A DNA stretch of 49,544 nt from Armatimonadota bacterium (GTDB lineage Bacteria; Armatimonadota; UBA5829): positions 1-49,544 of the forward strand of contig JBDKUO010000055.1 in assembly GCA_039679645.1 (NCBI GenBank), written 5' to 3'. How positions within the stretch are numbered: the stretch's first letter is position 1; each line of letters starts with the position of its first letter. The notes under the pieces are model-generated. The model was not told the DNA's origin. It did no database searches and was given only the letters and a program-made list of their open reading frames with translations. Position numbers and translations under genes: made by a program. This document shows, piece after piece, positions 15,454-24,407 of this stretch.

Positions 15454-18400
15454 TTACATGTTATTCATCTCAGCTATCTTATTCTTAACCGTCTTAGCGG
15501 CAATCGGATGATACATAATCAGCAAATCCGCACCAGCATTGAGCAGGCTCATGGCGGTCGCTATCTCAAGCAAAGCGCCGCGCCCGGCAGCCGATCCCCA
15601 AAGCGGGAATGTCTGCTGGGGAGCCTTGCTCTCCTTTGTCTTTGCAACCTCGCTGCCTGGAGTGCCCAGCATAGGCATTGCAAGCATAGCGTCACCGGTG
15701 AACGCGGAAGTGCGTATGCGCTCCATAACCGAGTATGTATACTCAAGGCCATAACCTATAGCACCGGTAAGAGCATCAATCATGATCTTCTCAGGGGCTA
15801 TACCCATATTGGTCATCAATATATTGAGCTGCTTGGCCATATTGACATCAATCGGTGTTTGGGAGACCACGCAATGACCATAGCCCATAGCGGCGGCGGT
15901 AAGAGTCTTGTAGTTATCCGTCTCCGCCCAGTTGAGCAGCAGGTTTTCACCTGCAAACGCGCCGGCTATCTGCTTCATGACATCGTTCATTTTATCATAA
16001 TTGCCCGGCCCGGTCACTATGATCGGCACCCCGACAGCCTTGAGCACGCTCTCGACAACTTTCGCCGCCTCGTCTGGTGACTTATCGCCATTGTCGGGAT
16101 GCGTTCCATCGAGCCTTACGCTGATTGCCTCTGCTCCAAGCTCCTCGACACAGTATTTCGCCATCTCGGCAGGGTTCTCAAGTAAGCTGCCGTAGGCTTC
16201 ATGCATGCTCTCGGGCAGTTTCGGAGAGACCTGATCGAAGACCTCCATCGCGACGACCTGCCTGCAGCCGGTATCGCCCTCGAAGTGCCTAAATGGGAAC
16301 GCGGATGCTCCGCCTATAGTCACGGCAGATGTCCGAGTCCCACTGCCGCCTAGCGTGACTGTGCGAACCTGCATATTGACGCTCTCGCCGGGCACACTGA
16401 ACTTGCCGGGCATTACTATCTTTGCTGATTGGCTTGGGGTGGCGATTCGGAGATCGCCACCCATCTTAATTAGGAGATCGCCATCCATCTTTGCATCCGA
16501 TACTACAACAGGCGCGGCGGTAACTGCTGCGGCAGGCTTACCCACCGGCACGGCTGTTTTGACAGGAGCATCTTTAACAGGTTCGACGGGCTTGCGCTCC
16601 GCCACAGGAGCAGCAGCCTTCTTGGCATCCCATGCGGCAGCTTCGGGTGACGGCTGGGTAATATCCCACATATCCAGTGCCGGATGGCTCACCTTTTCCA
16701 TATAAGCTCGGATCGAGGCGTCATCCATAGCGACGGTCTCGTCAGCGATCATATCTATGAACTCGGGTATGCCTATCTGCTCGCCGATGTGAAGCAGCTC
16801 TTCGCGCATGGAATCTTTGAGCTCTTTGGGCATCCAGACAATGCGTTTATGACCGCCGTCCGATGAGATAAACTTGCGGCTGGAGATATACGCCTTGCCT
16901 ACGCCTATAAAGCCGGGGGTCTGAATACCTCCACCGATCATACCTGCAAGAGTGGAGAACTTCATCCCCATTGGAGTATTTCCCGGATACTCACGGCTCA
17001 CTATCGCGACGCCGTTGCACTCCGGAAGCATCGCAACTATTGCCTCGAAACACCCGCAGCTTGTCATTGGGTCCTTGAGCATCGAGTAGGCGTTGAAGCA
17101 CTTGATCGTCTGCTTGGAGTTTTGATAGACATAGTCGTTGATATTTTTCCACTGACCGCGAATCGGGTCCAGACACTCGCCCTTAACCAGCGGCTGGTTC
17201 GGACCGGTCGGGTCGATCTCATAGGCTGCCTTGCCGTCCAGCCAGTTATACGCACCGCACAGCCCCAGCCTCTCGGGTGTAATTACGCAGACATGATTGG
17301 GAGCAAAGCTCTGACAGAGCAGGCATGAGTAAAACGTGTCCACGGTCTCATCAGTCATCGACTCGACACGCAAATTGCGCTCTCGATACACTCTGCGCGC
17401 TTGCGCAAGACGCTTTTTGACATCTTCTTTATCAGTAAACAGGGTCACCTGGACTTTGTCCACAATCGCCGGGTACTCATTCAGGAGCTTGGCATGAAGA
17501 ATCTCACCCAAATGGGCGATAGTAAAGCCCTTGGCTTTGGCGTTCTTGCTGATCCGCACCCAGATGATGTCGCGCTGGCCCATGTGCCAGATACCCTCTG
17601 CGCCGTTGATCAGATGGTGGATCTGGCGCTCAAGGATCGACTCGAAGTCGGGCTGCATCTTGCGGCCGGCCACTTCGACCCATATGCCCAGAGGCAGAGC
17701 AGTGCCCGGCTCTACGTCGTCCACATCCGGGCCGACAACTTCTATCTTGCCGTCCTGAACTTCATCAAGCTCTTTTGTGGTCACATACTCGAAGGCAGGC
17801 GTTCTGTTGCCGCCGAACTCGACATGGGTCTGCTCTTTTCTGACTCTTTCACCCTCGAATGCCGCGCCGTAAGTGACAGGGATCGGGACCTTGGTAATCT
17901 TGATCTTGCACCCGCGCACTTCAAGGGCCTTCTCGACTATCTGATCGAGCGGCACGTTTGAGACTATGTGCTCGTAAGTGCAGACTCCACTAGGCAGTAT
18001 CTGCGGGATGGCAGTATCGGCTATTATCGGGAAGCCATAACTGAGCGCCCCGGCTGCAGCGGCGCATTTGATCTCATCTACTGCGCCCAATGCCATTACA
18101 AACGCGAAGATGCGGTCTTTGTTATATTTGAGATTTCGGGCATAATCACCGGGCTGGACCCCGCCAAATGAAAGAGCCGCGCGGTTGGCAAATCCTAATG
18201 CATAAACTGCAGCCGAGACATCCTTGCCGAAGGGGACAAGGCGGGTATCCCAGCCGACCTCGACTCCGTCCTCGACAAGCTGCTCAGCGAAGGAGATACC
18301 GCCAGTCTCGCCAGCCATAAATACGTAAATATTTTTCTCCTGTAGCTCACGAGCGATCTTAACTGCCGTCTCAACGTCAGGTGCAGCCCCGACAATAGCG

Positions 18401-18834
18401 GCAAAGCCCGGAGCGGAGCCGTCTACAAACTCGATCCCGCGCTCACGTATAATTACATCGCTCGCAGCGCCCAGCCATATTCCATCTACCGGACTGGGGC
18501 CGATCAGATATTTACAGGCTTCAAGCATCTCTGCTGCAAAAAGAGTCGCCATCCCCGCGTCGAGAGTGCTGCCGAAATACGGCAGCCATGCGCTCTCAGA
18601 CGGCGGAGGAGCGAGCAAACTTTTGCACTCATCCAGAACAGGCAGCATATCTCCAAGGGTTTCGACTTTATGGCCCAGCAGAGAGTAAATAACCGGCAGA
18701 TAATAGGCCGTGTCGGGAAAGCCTACCGGGCAGTTACTGCCCTTGTCGGCGATAACCTGCCGCACAGCCGAATCGACAGCCCCTACCACTTTTTGTGCGC
18801 CGGATATGGCTATGGAGGATATAACTTTGCTCAT
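15454..18834 (-). CDS. acetyl-CoA synthase fused to corrinoid iron-sulfur protein small subunit (AcsB-AcsD)
   Basis: A 1126-residue fusion. Residues 1-735 are bacterial-type acetyl-CoA synthase, including the N-terminal domain that docks CODH. The A-cluster cysteines are complete: C504-x2-C507-x8-C516-x9-C526 and C593-G-C595, the same spacing as the Moorella enzyme. Residues about 735-780 are an Ala/Pro/Val/Lys linker. Residues about 800-1126 are the TIM-barrel small subunit of the corrinoid iron-sulfur protein (AcsD/CdhD type), with TIGGASAFPFRHFEGDTG, LDGTHPDNGDKSPDEAAK, WAETDNYKTLTAAAMGYGH and GYGLEYTYSVMERIR. The reaction assembles or cleaves acetyl-CoA from a methyl-corrinoid, CO and CoA. 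The ATG overlaps the upstream CODH-like stop codon (ATGA). The large corrinoid subunit (AcsC) and methyltransferase (AcsE) are not in the window. Confidence 0.95.
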   Translation of the reverse strand: MSKVISSIAISGAQKVVGAVDSAVRQVIADKGSNCPVGFPDTAYYLPVIYSLLGHKVETLGDMLPVLDECKSLLAPPPSESAWLPYFGSTLDAGMATLFAAEMLEACKYLIGPSPVDGIWLGAASDVIIRERGIEFVDGSAPGFAAIVGAAPDVETAVKIARELQEKNIYVFMAGETGGISFAEQLVEDGVEVGWDTRLVPFGKDVSAAVYALGFANRAALSFGGVQPGDYARNLKYNKDRIFAFVMALGAVDEIKCAAAAGALSYGFPIIADTAIPQILPSGVCTYEHIVSNVPLDQIVEKALEVRGCKIKITKVPIPVTYGAAFEGERVRKEQTHVEFGGNRTPAFEYVTTKELDEVQDGKIEVVGPDVDDVEPGTALPLGIWVEVAGRKMQPDFESILERQIHHLINGAEGIWHMGQRDIIWVRISKNAKAKGFTIAHLGEILHAKLLNEYPAIVDKVQVTLFTDKEDVKKRLAQARRVYRERNLRVESMTDETVDTFYSCLLCQSFAPNHVCVITPERLGLCGAYNWLDGKAAYEIDPTGPNQPLVKGECLDPIRGQWKNINDYVYQNSKQTIKCFNAYSMLKDPMTSCGCFEAIVAMLPECNGVAIVSREYPGNTPMGMKFSTLAGMIGGGIQTPGFIGVGKAYISSRKFISSDGGHKRIVWMPKELKDSMREELLHIGEQIGIPEFIDMIADETVAMDDASIRAYMEKVSHPALDMWDITQPSPEAAAWDAKKAAAPVAERKPVEPVKDAPVKTAVPVGKPAAAVTAAPVVVSDAKMDGDLLIKMGGDLRIATPSQSAKIVMPGKFSVPGESVNMQVRTVTLGGSGTRTSAVTIGGASAFPFRHFEGDTGCRQVVAMEVFDQVSPKLPESMHEAYGSLLENPAEMAKYCVEELGAEAISVRLDGTHPDNGDKSPDEAAKVVESVLKAVGVPIIVTGPGNYDKMNDVMKQIAGAFAGENLLLNWAETDNYKTLTAAAMGYGHCVVSQTPIDVNMAKQLNILMTNMGIAPEKIMIDALTGAIGYGLEYTYSVMERIRTSAFTGDAMLAMPMLGTPGSEVAKTKESKAPQQTFPLWGSAAGRGALLEIATAMSLLNAGADLLIMYHPIAAKTVKNKIAEMNNM

Positions 18835-20060
18835 ACCAGTTCCCTACGCTCTTTCATATCTAATAATTTGCGCTCGCGCTGAGTGTTGATTTTCAGGTTG
18901 TCGCGTTTGGACTCGATGTGCGTGATGATGGCGTCAACCGGGTCGTCGATGGTGGAAAGCGGAAAGCGGAAAGTGGAAAGATCAGATTTGCCTGTCACTG
19001 TGAACAGGCCGCTTGCTGCATAGCAACCTGCAATCGCAGCACTTCTTCCCTCTATTCCGCTGCAGTATACGGCAACCGGCATATCTGAGAAATCCTCACC
19101 CAGACCACCTAAGGCAAGCAGTTCGTTTGCCAAAAAGAGAATACGGGCGCTTTCATAACAAGAGCCCATCTGCAAAACGGGCGGCATCCCGATCATCTCA
19201 CACATCTCAGCAAGTGTCTCACCTGCCCGTTCAGCCGCAGCATCCGGCAGCAGCAATCCAGCCTTCGCCAGATCGACAACCGAGCAGCCGATATTGAGCA
19301 CGAGAACGTTTCGCTTAATAAGCTCATTCGCTATATCGGCCAAGCTATTATCGCCTTGGCTGCATCCAAACACACAAGCGATCCCGCGTATTCTACCGTC
19401 GGTGATTGCATCGGAGAGGACTTTGAGCCCGGCTCTGAACCGCCCGCCAAGCATATGTGCAATAGACTCATTAGAGAACCCTGCAATAAGCCTTAAGTCC
19501 GTGGAAAGATTCCCCGGACCACCAAATTCGGTGTTTTTCATAAAATCGGTAAAGCTTTTGCACTCAATCTTCTTACCAGGATCGATGTGAGCCACAAACG
19601 GCTTTGGCGAACCGTTCAGGATATCTGACGCGATAGTAGCAATCAGTGAACCTATCCAGCCATCTGCTATGCCGCACTTCATGCATGTCTTGGCCGGATC
19701 GCCGGTATTAGCCAGAGATTCAACCACAACCGAATCAATCCCGCTGGGCTCTATACCAAGACTCTTCCAGTGCTGTCTGAGCTTCGCCGGGGCCAAGTGC
19801 AATATAGCGCTCGGCTGGCTTGACCAGGAAAACTGGCTCATAAAAAAGCCTGCCAGTGCGGATGCGACGGTGCAGTCATCCCGGCCATCTGTCTCTATAT
19901 CGAACAGCGCTGCAGCTTTGTGTAAAAGCCCAGCATCTGCTATTCCATTTTGCGTTTGCGCGGAAAGCTTGAGAACTGCCGTTTTTGTCTTGGCAAAATC
20001 AGAAATGGAAGCTGCGCCCATCGCGCATGCACGCGTAAATTCCCCTATTTCAACAGCCAT
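18831..20060 (-). CDS. shortened CODH-like protein (mini-CooS type)
   Basis: A 409-residue relative of the nickel CO dehydrogenase CooS/AcsA, which is normally about 630-670 residues. Matching segments are LRQHWKSLGIEPSGID, ADGWIGSLIATIASDILNGSPKP, then directly LIAGFSNESIAHMLGG, IRGIACVFGCSQGDN, LIKRNVLVLNIGCSVVDLAKAGLL and PPVLQMGSCYESARI. C233, C259 and C301 correspond to C-cluster ligands Cys446, Cys476 and Cys526 of Carboxydothermus CooS-II. The N-terminal B/D-cluster cysteines are absent, and the middle domain that carries His261, Cys295 and Cys333 is missing between residues about 160 and 192. Normal CO oxidation is therefore unlikely; a structural partner for acetyl-CoA synthase is my inference. 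GGAGAAGCTA precedes the ATG at 20060. The C-terminal part includes a GGAAAGTGGAAAG-type repeat. Confidence 0.88.
   Translation of the reverse strand: MAVEIGEFTRACAMGAASISDFAKTKTAVLKLSAQTQNGIADAGLLHKAAALFDIETDGRDDCTVASALAGFFMSQFSWSSQPSAILHLAPAKLRQHWKSLGIEPSGIDSVVVESLANTGDPAKTCMKCGIADGWIGSLIATIASDILNGSPKPFVAHIDPGKKIECKSFTDFMKNTEFGGPGNLSTDLRLIAGFSNESIAHMLGGRFRAGLKVLSDAITDGRIRGIACVFGCSQGDNSLADIANELIKRNVLVLNIGCSVVDLAKAGLLLPDAAAERAGETLAEMCEMIGMPPVLQMGSCYESARILFLANELLALGGLGEDFSDMPVAVYCSGIEGRSAAIAGCYAASGLFTVTGKSDLSTFRFPLSTIDDPVDAIITHIESKRDNLKINTQRERKLLDMKERRELV
18950..18981. repeat. GGAAAGCGGAAAGTGGAAAG repeat inside the CODH-like gene
   Basis: A purine-rich tandem that, read on the minus strand, encodes the STFRFPLST stretch near the C-terminus of the CODH-like protein. 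A similar tandem is in the gene at 33865. Confidence 0.55.
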
Positions 20061-20103
20061 TAGCTTCTCCTAAATTGGTCGTGGTCATCACTCAGATAAT
20101 AAT

Positions 20104-20131
20104 AATCAATATAAAATATAGAATACTAAAT
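20104..20131. repeat. AT-rich dispersed repeat (copy 2)
   Basis: AATCAATATAAAATATAG followed by AATACTAAAT in the 65-bp cooC to CODH-like spacer. Its complement matches the ATTTAGTATTTTATATTGATT core seen at 41609. Confidence 0.5.
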
Positions 20132-20878
20132 CAATTGACTCATCAGCTTGTCTACACTCACTCGGCAGGCCGAATCAGATGGTATATTGCCGACTGCCGA
20201 GCCGTCAGCATCCAATGCCGCAACATTATCATCCATCTTAATGACCTCAAGGAGCGGCAGACCCGTAGCCTCTGCCTCGACCTTGACTCTATCCGGCAAT
20301 ACACCGTCCGGCACTCGATTGACCACCAGACCACGATTTGCGACCGGCGTGCCCATCTCCTGTGTAAGATCTGCAATGCGCTTTGCAGTGCGGATACCCC
20401 GCACGCTGCAGTCCGACACTATTACCAGAAAGTCTATCTTCAGCAGAGTCCTTCGTGAGATGTGCTCGCATCCGGCTTCGCTGTCTACCACAATATGCTT
20501 GTAACCAGACGAGAGGCGTTGAATGACATCACGCAGCACGTTATTAGCGAAACAGTAGCAGCCGGGGCCTTCGGGTCGACCCATCACAATCAGGTCGTAG
20601 CCCTCCTGCTCCACCAGAGCCGACTGCACCTGCATATCCAGAAATTCCTGCTTGGCTATCCCGGCCAGCTTGCTCGCAGTCGTCCGTGCGTCCTCGCGTA
20701 TGCCCCCGACGCTCGCCTCATACGTGATACCAAGAGCCTCGTTGAGGTTGGCATTGGAATCCGCATCCACGGCTAATACGGGTGTCTCTTTGTGCGCCAC
20801 CAGCCACTGGAGAATCATGGTGGAGATAGTTGTCTTGCCCACCCCACCCTTGCCTGTCACAGCTATTGTATAACCCAT
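20126..20878 (-). CDS. cooC: CooC/AcsF-type nickel-insertion ATPase
   Basis: P-loop ATPase of the MinD/SIMIBI class that matures nickel centres in CODH or acetyl-CoA synthase. It has 250 residues. The deviant Walker A is GKGGVGKTT (about 9-17), DADSNANLNEALG follows, and the nickel-binding CxC of the family is in GPGCYCF (C107, C109). VVDSEAGCEHISRRT and VNRVPDG are also typical. It starts 2 bp after the core-MetE stop and lies just upstream of the CODH-like and acetyl-CoA synthase genes. As the CODH-like protein lacks a full C-cluster site, the client is more likely the A-cluster of the fusion protein. Confidence 0.94.
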   Translation of the reverse strand: MGYTIAVTGKGGVGKTTISTMILQWLVAHKETPVLAVDADSNANLNEALGITYEASVGGIREDARTTASKLAGIAKQEFLDMQVQSALVEQEGYDLIVMGRPEGPGCYCFANNVLRDVIQRLSSGYKHIVVDSEAGCEHISRRTLLKIDFLVIVSDCSVRGIRTAKRIADLTQEMGTPVANRGLVVNRVPDGVLPDRVKVEAEATGLPLLEVIKMDDNVAALDADGSAVGNIPSDSACRVSVDKLMSQLI

Positions 20879-23049: not shown

Positions 23050-23847
23050 TTATGACATTATCTTAAGCTTGCCCTGCTCCGCTGTCAAGCGCTCGCAGGA
23101 CTCCGTATAGTAATCATCGGCGATCTCAAAACCAATAAACGGCACACCAAGTCTGGCGCAGGCAATCGCACTGGAACCAATCCCGAGAAACGGGTCCATT
23201 ACAAGTCGAGCGCGTTCAAGGCCGTGCAGCCTAATGCACCGCATCGGAAGCTCGATTGGAAACGTAGCGGGATGCGGACGTTCCTTATCACGACTCTGGA
23301 TAGTCTCGTATGGGATAAACCATGTGTTGCCGCGGCAGCGCAGGTCTTTATCCGCACTCTTCCAACGGCCTATGTTGGTCTTATCCTGATAGGGCACGCC
23401 TACAGCCAGTCTATCGAGAGGAACATCGCCGCGCTTCGTAAGATGAAATATATACTCGTGGCAGTCATTGAGAAAGCGCTGTGAGGATATCGGCTTGAAG
23501 TGGCCGACTGCAACATCGCACACAATTCCAGGATATTTGCCGACCTCACTCTTTAATATCGCAATCGACTTTACCCAGTGGATCACATTTTGGAGTGTAA
23601 AGTGCCTGACCATAACTTCCAGCAGTTGAAACGGTACCAGCGGATCTTTTGGCTTGCCTCCGACATTGAGGAAGAGCGATCCCTGATCGGAAAGCACTCG
23701 CTTGATCTCTACAGCCCACTCATCCATCCATGACAGATAGTCCTCACGTGAAAGTGTGTCGTCATAGCCGTTGTAGTTGATCCCGAGGTTATATGGCGGC
23801 GAGGTCACGACAATGTCCACACTGCCCGCATCCAGGCTGTCGTGCAT
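23050..23847 (-). CDS. DNA methyltransferase (TSPPY type)
   Basis: SAM-dependent DNA amino-methyltransferase, 265 residues from the only in-frame ATG. Catalytic motif IV is [10 protein letters not shown], the SPPY form being usual for N4-cytosine enzymes. The SAM region is at the C-terminus, [27 protein letters not shown], so the motif order is IV then I. A target-recognition segment lies between. Homology seems to start before the ATG: in-frame upstream codons read [11 protein letters not shown], a typical family opening, but no ATG, GTG or TTG exists between there and the upstream in-frame stop. The real start may be a rare codon such as ATT just after the preceding gene. No restriction enzyme is adjacent, so it may be an orphan. 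Confidence 0.88.
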
Positions 23848-23930: not shown

Positions 23931-24407
23931 TTATTTCGTTTTCTCCCTGCTGGCTAAGGCTATTTTCCTCAACTTTATCATCATAGTGGCGACATCACGC
24001 GCGCCTTCAAACTTCTCGACTATATGCCCTTTAGAATCCGCCAATACAGACGCTGGCGGGTTTGCCAAAGACAGGCTATCTATGGCGCTCTGGCCCGCTT
24101 TATCTTCCCAGTTGAGCTTGCGAAATTCGATTTTACTGCCGAATTCGGCCTGCATTTGCGTAAATACCTTATCCATTGCCTTGCCGCCGGGTTTTATATC
24201 GGATCGAACCAGCAGCCAAGTCGGCTTGCCCTTATTATGAAAGTTGAATGCGGGAGCAACCTGCCCCGCGCCTATCGGGACGCCTCACCCTCCACTGGAA
24301 GAACCGCATTGAGATGTTTCTTCGGTCTTAGGCTCTAGAGCCTGCAGAGCAGCCCACAATATGCCCAACACTATAACAATAGCCAGACCAATCATGAAGT
24401 TTTTCAT
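23931..24407 (-). CDS. predicted selenocysteine-containing, membrane-anchored thioredoxin-fold protein
   Basis: A 158-codon frame read through one in-frame TGA at codon 41 (24285-24287). The ATG at 24407 overlaps the stop codon of the upstream gene (ATGA), which fixes the start. Residues 5-22 form a membrane helix ([18 protein letters not shown]), then [16 protein letters not shown] leads to the TGA, followed by [15 protein letters not shown] and a thioredoxin-like region ([10 protein letters not shown]...[14 protein letters not shown]). The usual CxxC site after the first strand is replaced by DIKPGG, so Cys34 and the residue at 41 are the only redox candidates. A hairpin 16-35 nt after the TGA fits a bacterial SECIS. 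If TGA is stop, two small ORFs (40 and at most 117 codons) remain. It would face the periplasm. Confidence 0.75.
24250..24269 (-). promoter_or_regulatory. putative bacterial SECIS hairpin
   Basis: Downstream of the TGA at 24285-24287, GCGGGGC pairs with GC-TCCCGC around an AGGUU loop (5 Watson-Crick pairs, one G-U, one bulged C, one closing C-G pair). The loop guanines are 24-25 nt after the TGA. The GCAGGUUGC tip closely resembles the GCAGGUCUGC tip of the E. coli fdhF SECIS as I recall it. Confidence 0.65.

Follow-up and report, generated by a model that had tools for sequence, protein, structure and literature searches.

A TGA-interrupted frame on the minus strand

The window, the whole stretch of 49,544 nucleotides analysed here, carries on its minus strand a reading frame that begins at an ATG at 24407, overlapping the TGA stop of the preceding gene (ATGA), and ends with a TAA at 23933-23931. 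The frame is interrupted only at codon 41, by a TGA (24287-24285) that is preceded by 40 codons and followed by 117, and the C-terminus of the full-length product reads ...KTK. Conventional gene calling yields only an 81-aa ORF starting at the ATG at 24176. The original prediction had described this layout, including the ATGA overlap, the codon counts and the truncation to 24176, and had proposed that the TGA encodes selenocysteine (Sec); all of its coordinates were confirmed on the minus strand, and the 81-aa ORF starts where the truncation had been placed. The features of the locus are listed in Table 1.

Table 1. Positions of the candidate selenoprotein gene, its parts and other features
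Feature	Position	Strand	Remarks
Candidate selenoprotein gene, 158 residues including Sec at residue 41	23931..24407	minus	Ends with TAA; homologues have an in-frame TGA
Predicted N-terminal transmembrane helix, about residues 2-24	24337..24404	minus	AlphaFold2 helix 2-23; maximum 19-residue hydropathy 2.49
Gly-rich juxtamembrane Cys-Sec motif, C34-GSSSGG-U41-G	24282..24308	minus	Disordered linker in the model
UGA codon, predicted Sec41	24285..24287	minus	TGA kept in G000, G002, G003, G004, G007 and G011
UGA and bacterial-type SECIS hairpin, GCAGGUUGC apical part	24246..24287	minus	Loop GG at nt 24-25 after the UGA
Thioredoxin-fold domain, about residues 62-158	23934..24224	minus	Lacks CxxC; invariant Pro118
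N6/N4 DNA methylase gene	23050..23847	minus	Next gene downstream in 6/6 genomes with the UGA gene
CODH/acetyl-CoA synthase cluster	15454..20878	minus	Acetyl-CoA synthase ORF, Prismane/CODH-family protein, CooC-like ATPase
1126-aa ORF, apparent acetyl-CoA synthase subunit fusion	15454..18834	minus	CODH_A_N, CdhC, ACS_CODH_B_C, CdhD
Short form in G002, 76 residues	L046:1489-1719 (G002:C180:5029-5259)		Transmembrane helix, CAASGGGU, 38-residue tail, then stop

The open tail is unusual in its length, since the read-through tails of 38 long ORFs spanned at most 99 codons, except for one of 267. Judged from the sequences compared, the conservation of the TGA, the frame and a downstream hairpin across genomes is stronger evidence than this 117-codon tail. 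UGA is an ordinary stop elsewhere, ending 11 of the 35 window genes longer than 200 aa, and a reassigned code was thereby ruled out. The methylase gene is solitary and conserved in the family; in several genomes, some of them devoid of the selenoprotein gene, it is followed by a gene for DAHP synthase.

Conservation of the frame and of the TGA

We searched 291 genomes of the phylum for relatives. Strong matches were confined to one family, giving six members including that of the genome containing the window (G000). The in-frame TGA was kept in the five other genomes, at protein identities down to approximately 20-29%. The homologue in G004 (69% identity) reads CGSSGGGU-G around the Sec codon, that in G003 (57%; contig broken by N) reads CGU-G, and the distant homologues in G007 and G011 (both approximately 20-29%) read ICSPGDGU-G and ICTPGDGU-S, respectively. 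The sixth member, in G002, is a short form that has no thioredoxin domain but occupies the same locus position, with the hairpin at the same distance from the TGA. Its intact frame and hairpin argue, at the sequence level, against a decaying gene. The original prediction had named relatives with a true stop and no downstream conservation as a contrary case; the relatives instead keep the TGA, and the frame continues beyond it.

Between G000 and G004, dN/dS was approximately 0.14 before the TGA and 0.30 after it, and on this pairwise estimate purifying selection is acting on both sides of the codon. In the stretch from the TGA to the following ATG, dS was low (0.32 versus 0.74-1.26), as expected if the RNA in this stretch is constrained.

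A Cys in the TGA column, which the original prediction had proposed to look for, was not present in any homologue. An aligned Cys at the Sec site is a usual supporting criterion of computational prediction, and is not a biochemical requirement. Cys-type relatives do exist in G019 and G025, both without SelA, where a CC in the same linker is combined with a normal CxxC (WCAQC). The G019 gene lies within a cluster (L072:3943-8130) encoding an ArsP_1 permease, a DsbD_TM protein and a Thioredoxin_3 protein. HMM matches limited to the N-terminus in G244, G100 and G062 were judged not to be relatives. No relatives were found on viral contigs or plasmids, and a pattern scan of genome contigs gave one weak thioredoxin-like match, the patterns being insensitive because they had Cys in place of the TGA.

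All six genomes with the UGA gene encode SelA. In G001, the sole congener without SelA, the methylase gene comes immediately after nrdJ, leaving no space for the selenoprotein gene, and in ten other genomes the region upstream of the methylase gene showed no UGA gene. These observations bear on the reading in which UGA is a true stop, so that the locus would encode a 40-residue membrane peptide and, downstream, a thioredoxin-like ORF that is either separate, starting at 24176, or a remnant. The ATG at that position does open an ORF of the kind that gene callers would report. However, selection spans the stretch between the TGA and this ATG, which also encodes strand 1 of the thioredoxin fold. 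Furthermore, the codon is TGA in all six members, never TAA or TAG, and is always accompanied by a SECIS-like hairpin, while the gene is limited to SelA-positive genomes. We therefore consider a true stop very improbable.

The hairpin and the Sec-decoding machinery

A hairpin with a GG apical loop follows the TGA in all six genomes. Counted from the UGA, the GG occupies nt 24-25 in G000, G002, G003 and G004, which belong to one genus, and nt 18-19 in G007 and G011, which belong to another, so that the hairpin is shifted by 6 nt yet kept. In each of the six members, no fewer than six of the seven pairs flanking a GG are formed, as compared with 2.4% of 3,946 background TGAs, by a pairing criterion set after inspection of the sequences and with another GG, at nt 19, scoring highest in G004. 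In the alignment of these few sequences (six), 85.7% of cells pair and two-sided changes occur in three of the seven pairs; 10 of 500 shuffles reached the same covariation score. A covariance model, R1, recovered the hairpin in the six genomes with E values from 6.7e-8 to 6.2e-4, all of these being training members. Weaker matches of the RNA model in G001, G007, G008 and G011 (E 0.04-0.7) had no conserved gene around them and were judged to be due to chance. The stability of the single-sequence fold was not unusual relative to shuffles (z = 0.22), and stability alone is uninformative. Rfam contained no family and no SECIS match for the hairpin. The published bacterial SECIS model places the element 16-37 nt downstream of the UGA with a G in the first two loop positions (PMC13188914), and the hairpin agrees with it in both respects. 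The original prediction had placed loop guanines at 24-25 nt in a hairpin at SECIS distance; this position was confirmed, and the structure recurs at such distances in the relatives with compensating changes.

The presence of selA, selB, selD and a tRNA-Sec in the genome had been proposed as a check, and all four were found in G000 (3.41 Mb, 99.7% complete). SelA matched with 482 bits, SelD, in its Cys form, with 388 bits, and SelB with 404 bits, the latter being full-length with the elongation-factor domains and the SelB winged-helix domains. The tRNA-Sec, with anticodon UCA, scored 72.9 bits. That the tRNA reading UGA is tRNA-Sec argues against the TGA being a recoded Trp or Gly codon, and dN/dS values that stay under 1 before as well as after the TGA argue against a pseudogene. 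The genomes are draft assemblies, but an error of sequencing was ruled out by the same TGA in six separate assemblies. Error, pseudogene and recoding together thus have a negligible probability.

Among selenoproteins, formate dehydrogenase is the one that most commonly keeps Sec decoding in place. Searching for other Sec users in G000, we found no formate dehydrogenase alpha subunit with TIGR01591, and none of the AhpC-TSA proteins checked had an in-frame UGA. The window also contains a CODH/acetyl-CoA synthase cluster (Table 1), yet TIGR01591 has no match in the genome. In G004 (L067), the start of an ORF very similar to the 1126-aa acetyl-CoA synthase ORF occupies the corresponding position.

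Taken together, the conservation of the codon, the decoding machinery, the SECIS hairpin and the pattern of presence and absence make it very probable, on comparative sequence grounds, that the UGA at codon 41 is read as Sec and that the gene encodes a real selenoprotein of a family so far undescribed. SelB would bind the hairpin and deliver the Sec-tRNA, allowing read-through to the 158-residue protein.

Protein architecture, proposed function and comparison with known systems

The AlphaFold2 model (mean pLDDT 69, confident for the thioredoxin domain only) has a helix at residues 2-23, disorder at 24-60 and a thioredoxin fold from approximately residue 62. The fold was matched by Foldseek, by profile search and by VIA-align (Z 14.1, rmsd 1.8, 97 residues). 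The position of CxxC is taken by D-I-K-P-G-G, in register with D-W-C-A-Q-C of the Cys-type relative in G019, and neither the window protein (KPGG) nor the homologues in G004, G007 and G011 have CxxC, UxxC or CxxU at the start of the helix of the fold. Pro118 is invariant and sits at the thioredoxin cis-Pro position, before the third strand. In all six members Sec lies 11-16 residues past the hydrophobic stretch, with one Cys located 1, 5 or 6 residues before it. The fold matches and the G019 alignment agree with the original prediction that the part after the TGA is thioredoxin-like with DIKPGG in place of CxxC, and its view that Cys34 and residue 41 are the only redox candidates was upheld. 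Its interpretation as a selenoprotein was supported, but it had noticed neither the transmembrane anchor nor the existence of a form that lacks the thioredoxin domain.

Since the G002 protein retains the helix, the Cys...GGGU motif and the hairpin while lacking the thioredoxin domain, the juxtamembrane Cys-Sec motif looks like the functional core. The same sequence suggests that the anchor and arm are the essential part, and that the thioredoxin domain may be dispensable, at least in this one congener.

In the mechanism that we propose, the predicted helix would anchor the protein to the membrane with its N-terminus in the cytoplasm; the positive-inside rule would place the arm and the thioredoxin domain outside. 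The predicted disordered, Gly-rich arm would bear Cys34 and Sec41 approximately 11-16 residues from the membrane, and these residues could cycle through a selenenylsulfide. The arm would then provide a mobile selenol-thiol redox centre for the reduction of a disulfide, a peroxide or an oxidised metalloid at the membrane surface, and the thioredoxin domain, redox-dead but with the cis-Pro groove retained, may help to bind substrate or partner as a docking module. We put the chances of such an extracytoplasmic selenol-thiol redox role at about even. Alternatively, the protein could be a selenoprotein in which the Cys-Sec arm serves for the binding or transfer of a soft metal(loid), for instance Hg, As or Cu, and not for redox chemistry on disulfides or peroxides. 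The neighbours of the closest Cys-type relative of the same layout, that in G019, favor this alternative, as do the catalogued selenoproteins annotated as mercuric transport proteins (PMC13188914). On the other hand, the UGA genes themselves adjoin the DNA methylase gene, with no metal cassette, and the distance from Cys to Sec ranges between 1 and 6 residues; metal(loid) handling is an unlikely, though not negligible, function. We also tentatively suggest, at somewhat less than even chances, that a minimal membrane-tethered module (a transmembrane helix, approximately 15 residues and Cys...Gly-Sec) can work without an enzyme domain, as in the 76-residue form, and that it is a bacterial functional counterpart of SELENOK/SELENOS to which the thioredoxin domain is an accessory.

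Most bacterial selenoproteins were found through Sec replacing the Cys of a known redox motif. In the present protein the active site of the fold is gone and Sec lies in a membrane-proximal flexible arm, so searches for Cys/Sec pairs would miss this layout, and gene callers truncate it. A 2026 catalogue comprises 119 prokaryotic selenoprotein families, none of which is a membrane-anchored protein combining a thioredoxin fold devoid of CxxC with a Sec-bearing linker (PMC13188914). None of the NCBIfam and Pfam models reached its cut-off with the UGA-containing members tested, and no NCBIfam model came near its own. The original prediction, which knew of no annotated selenoprotein of this form, agrees in this with both the catalogue and NCBIfam. 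The finding adds a selenoprotein family to a genome without a detected formate dehydrogenase (TIGR01591).

The hairpin resembles the E. coli fdhF-type SECIS in that its distance and loop G fit the 16-37 nt model, and its apical loop is of the GCAGGU type, as in fdhF; it differs in that the spacing between the UGA and the loop depends on the genus, being 24-25 nt in one and 18-19 nt in the other. With the membrane-anchored thiol oxidoreductases of the ResA/TlpA/DsbE type, and with the Cys-type proteins of G019 and G025, the protein shares the transmembrane anchor, the thioredoxin fold, the conserved Pro and detectable sequence similarity, but KPGG replaces CxxC and the redox pair would be the Cys-Sec of the linker, outside the fold. 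Selenocysteine thioredoxins and thioredoxin-like selenoproteins (UxxC, Sec.1 CxU, SaoT, HUIPC) likewise combine this fold with Sec encoded by UGA and a bacterial SECIS; in the UxxC and CxxU entries, however, Sec replaces a Cys of the short redox motif, whereas here the redox site of the fold is lost and Sec lies in the linker.

Eukaryotic SELENOK and SELENOS have a single N-terminal transmembrane helix and a Gly-rich segment with Sec, and in SELENOS a disordered region contains a selenylsulfide between Cys and Sec (PMC10650576). Our search of the literature on SELENOK/S-like proteins in bacteria and on Armatimonadota selenoproteins found nothing relevant. The likeness, a single N-terminal transmembrane segment and a Gly-rich segment, is one of layout only and is probably convergent; the G002 form without a thioredoxin domain comes closest. 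In SELENOK/SELENOS, Sec is the second or third residue from the C-terminus, whereas 117 residues follow it here (38 in G002), and the bacterial SECIS and the thioredoxin domain belong only to the present protein. The family offers a small system for asking whether a tethered Cys-Sec arm alone can be a redox device. As a whole, the novelty lies in the selenoprotein family itself and in the unusual position of its Sec, and the chemistry is of a known kind.
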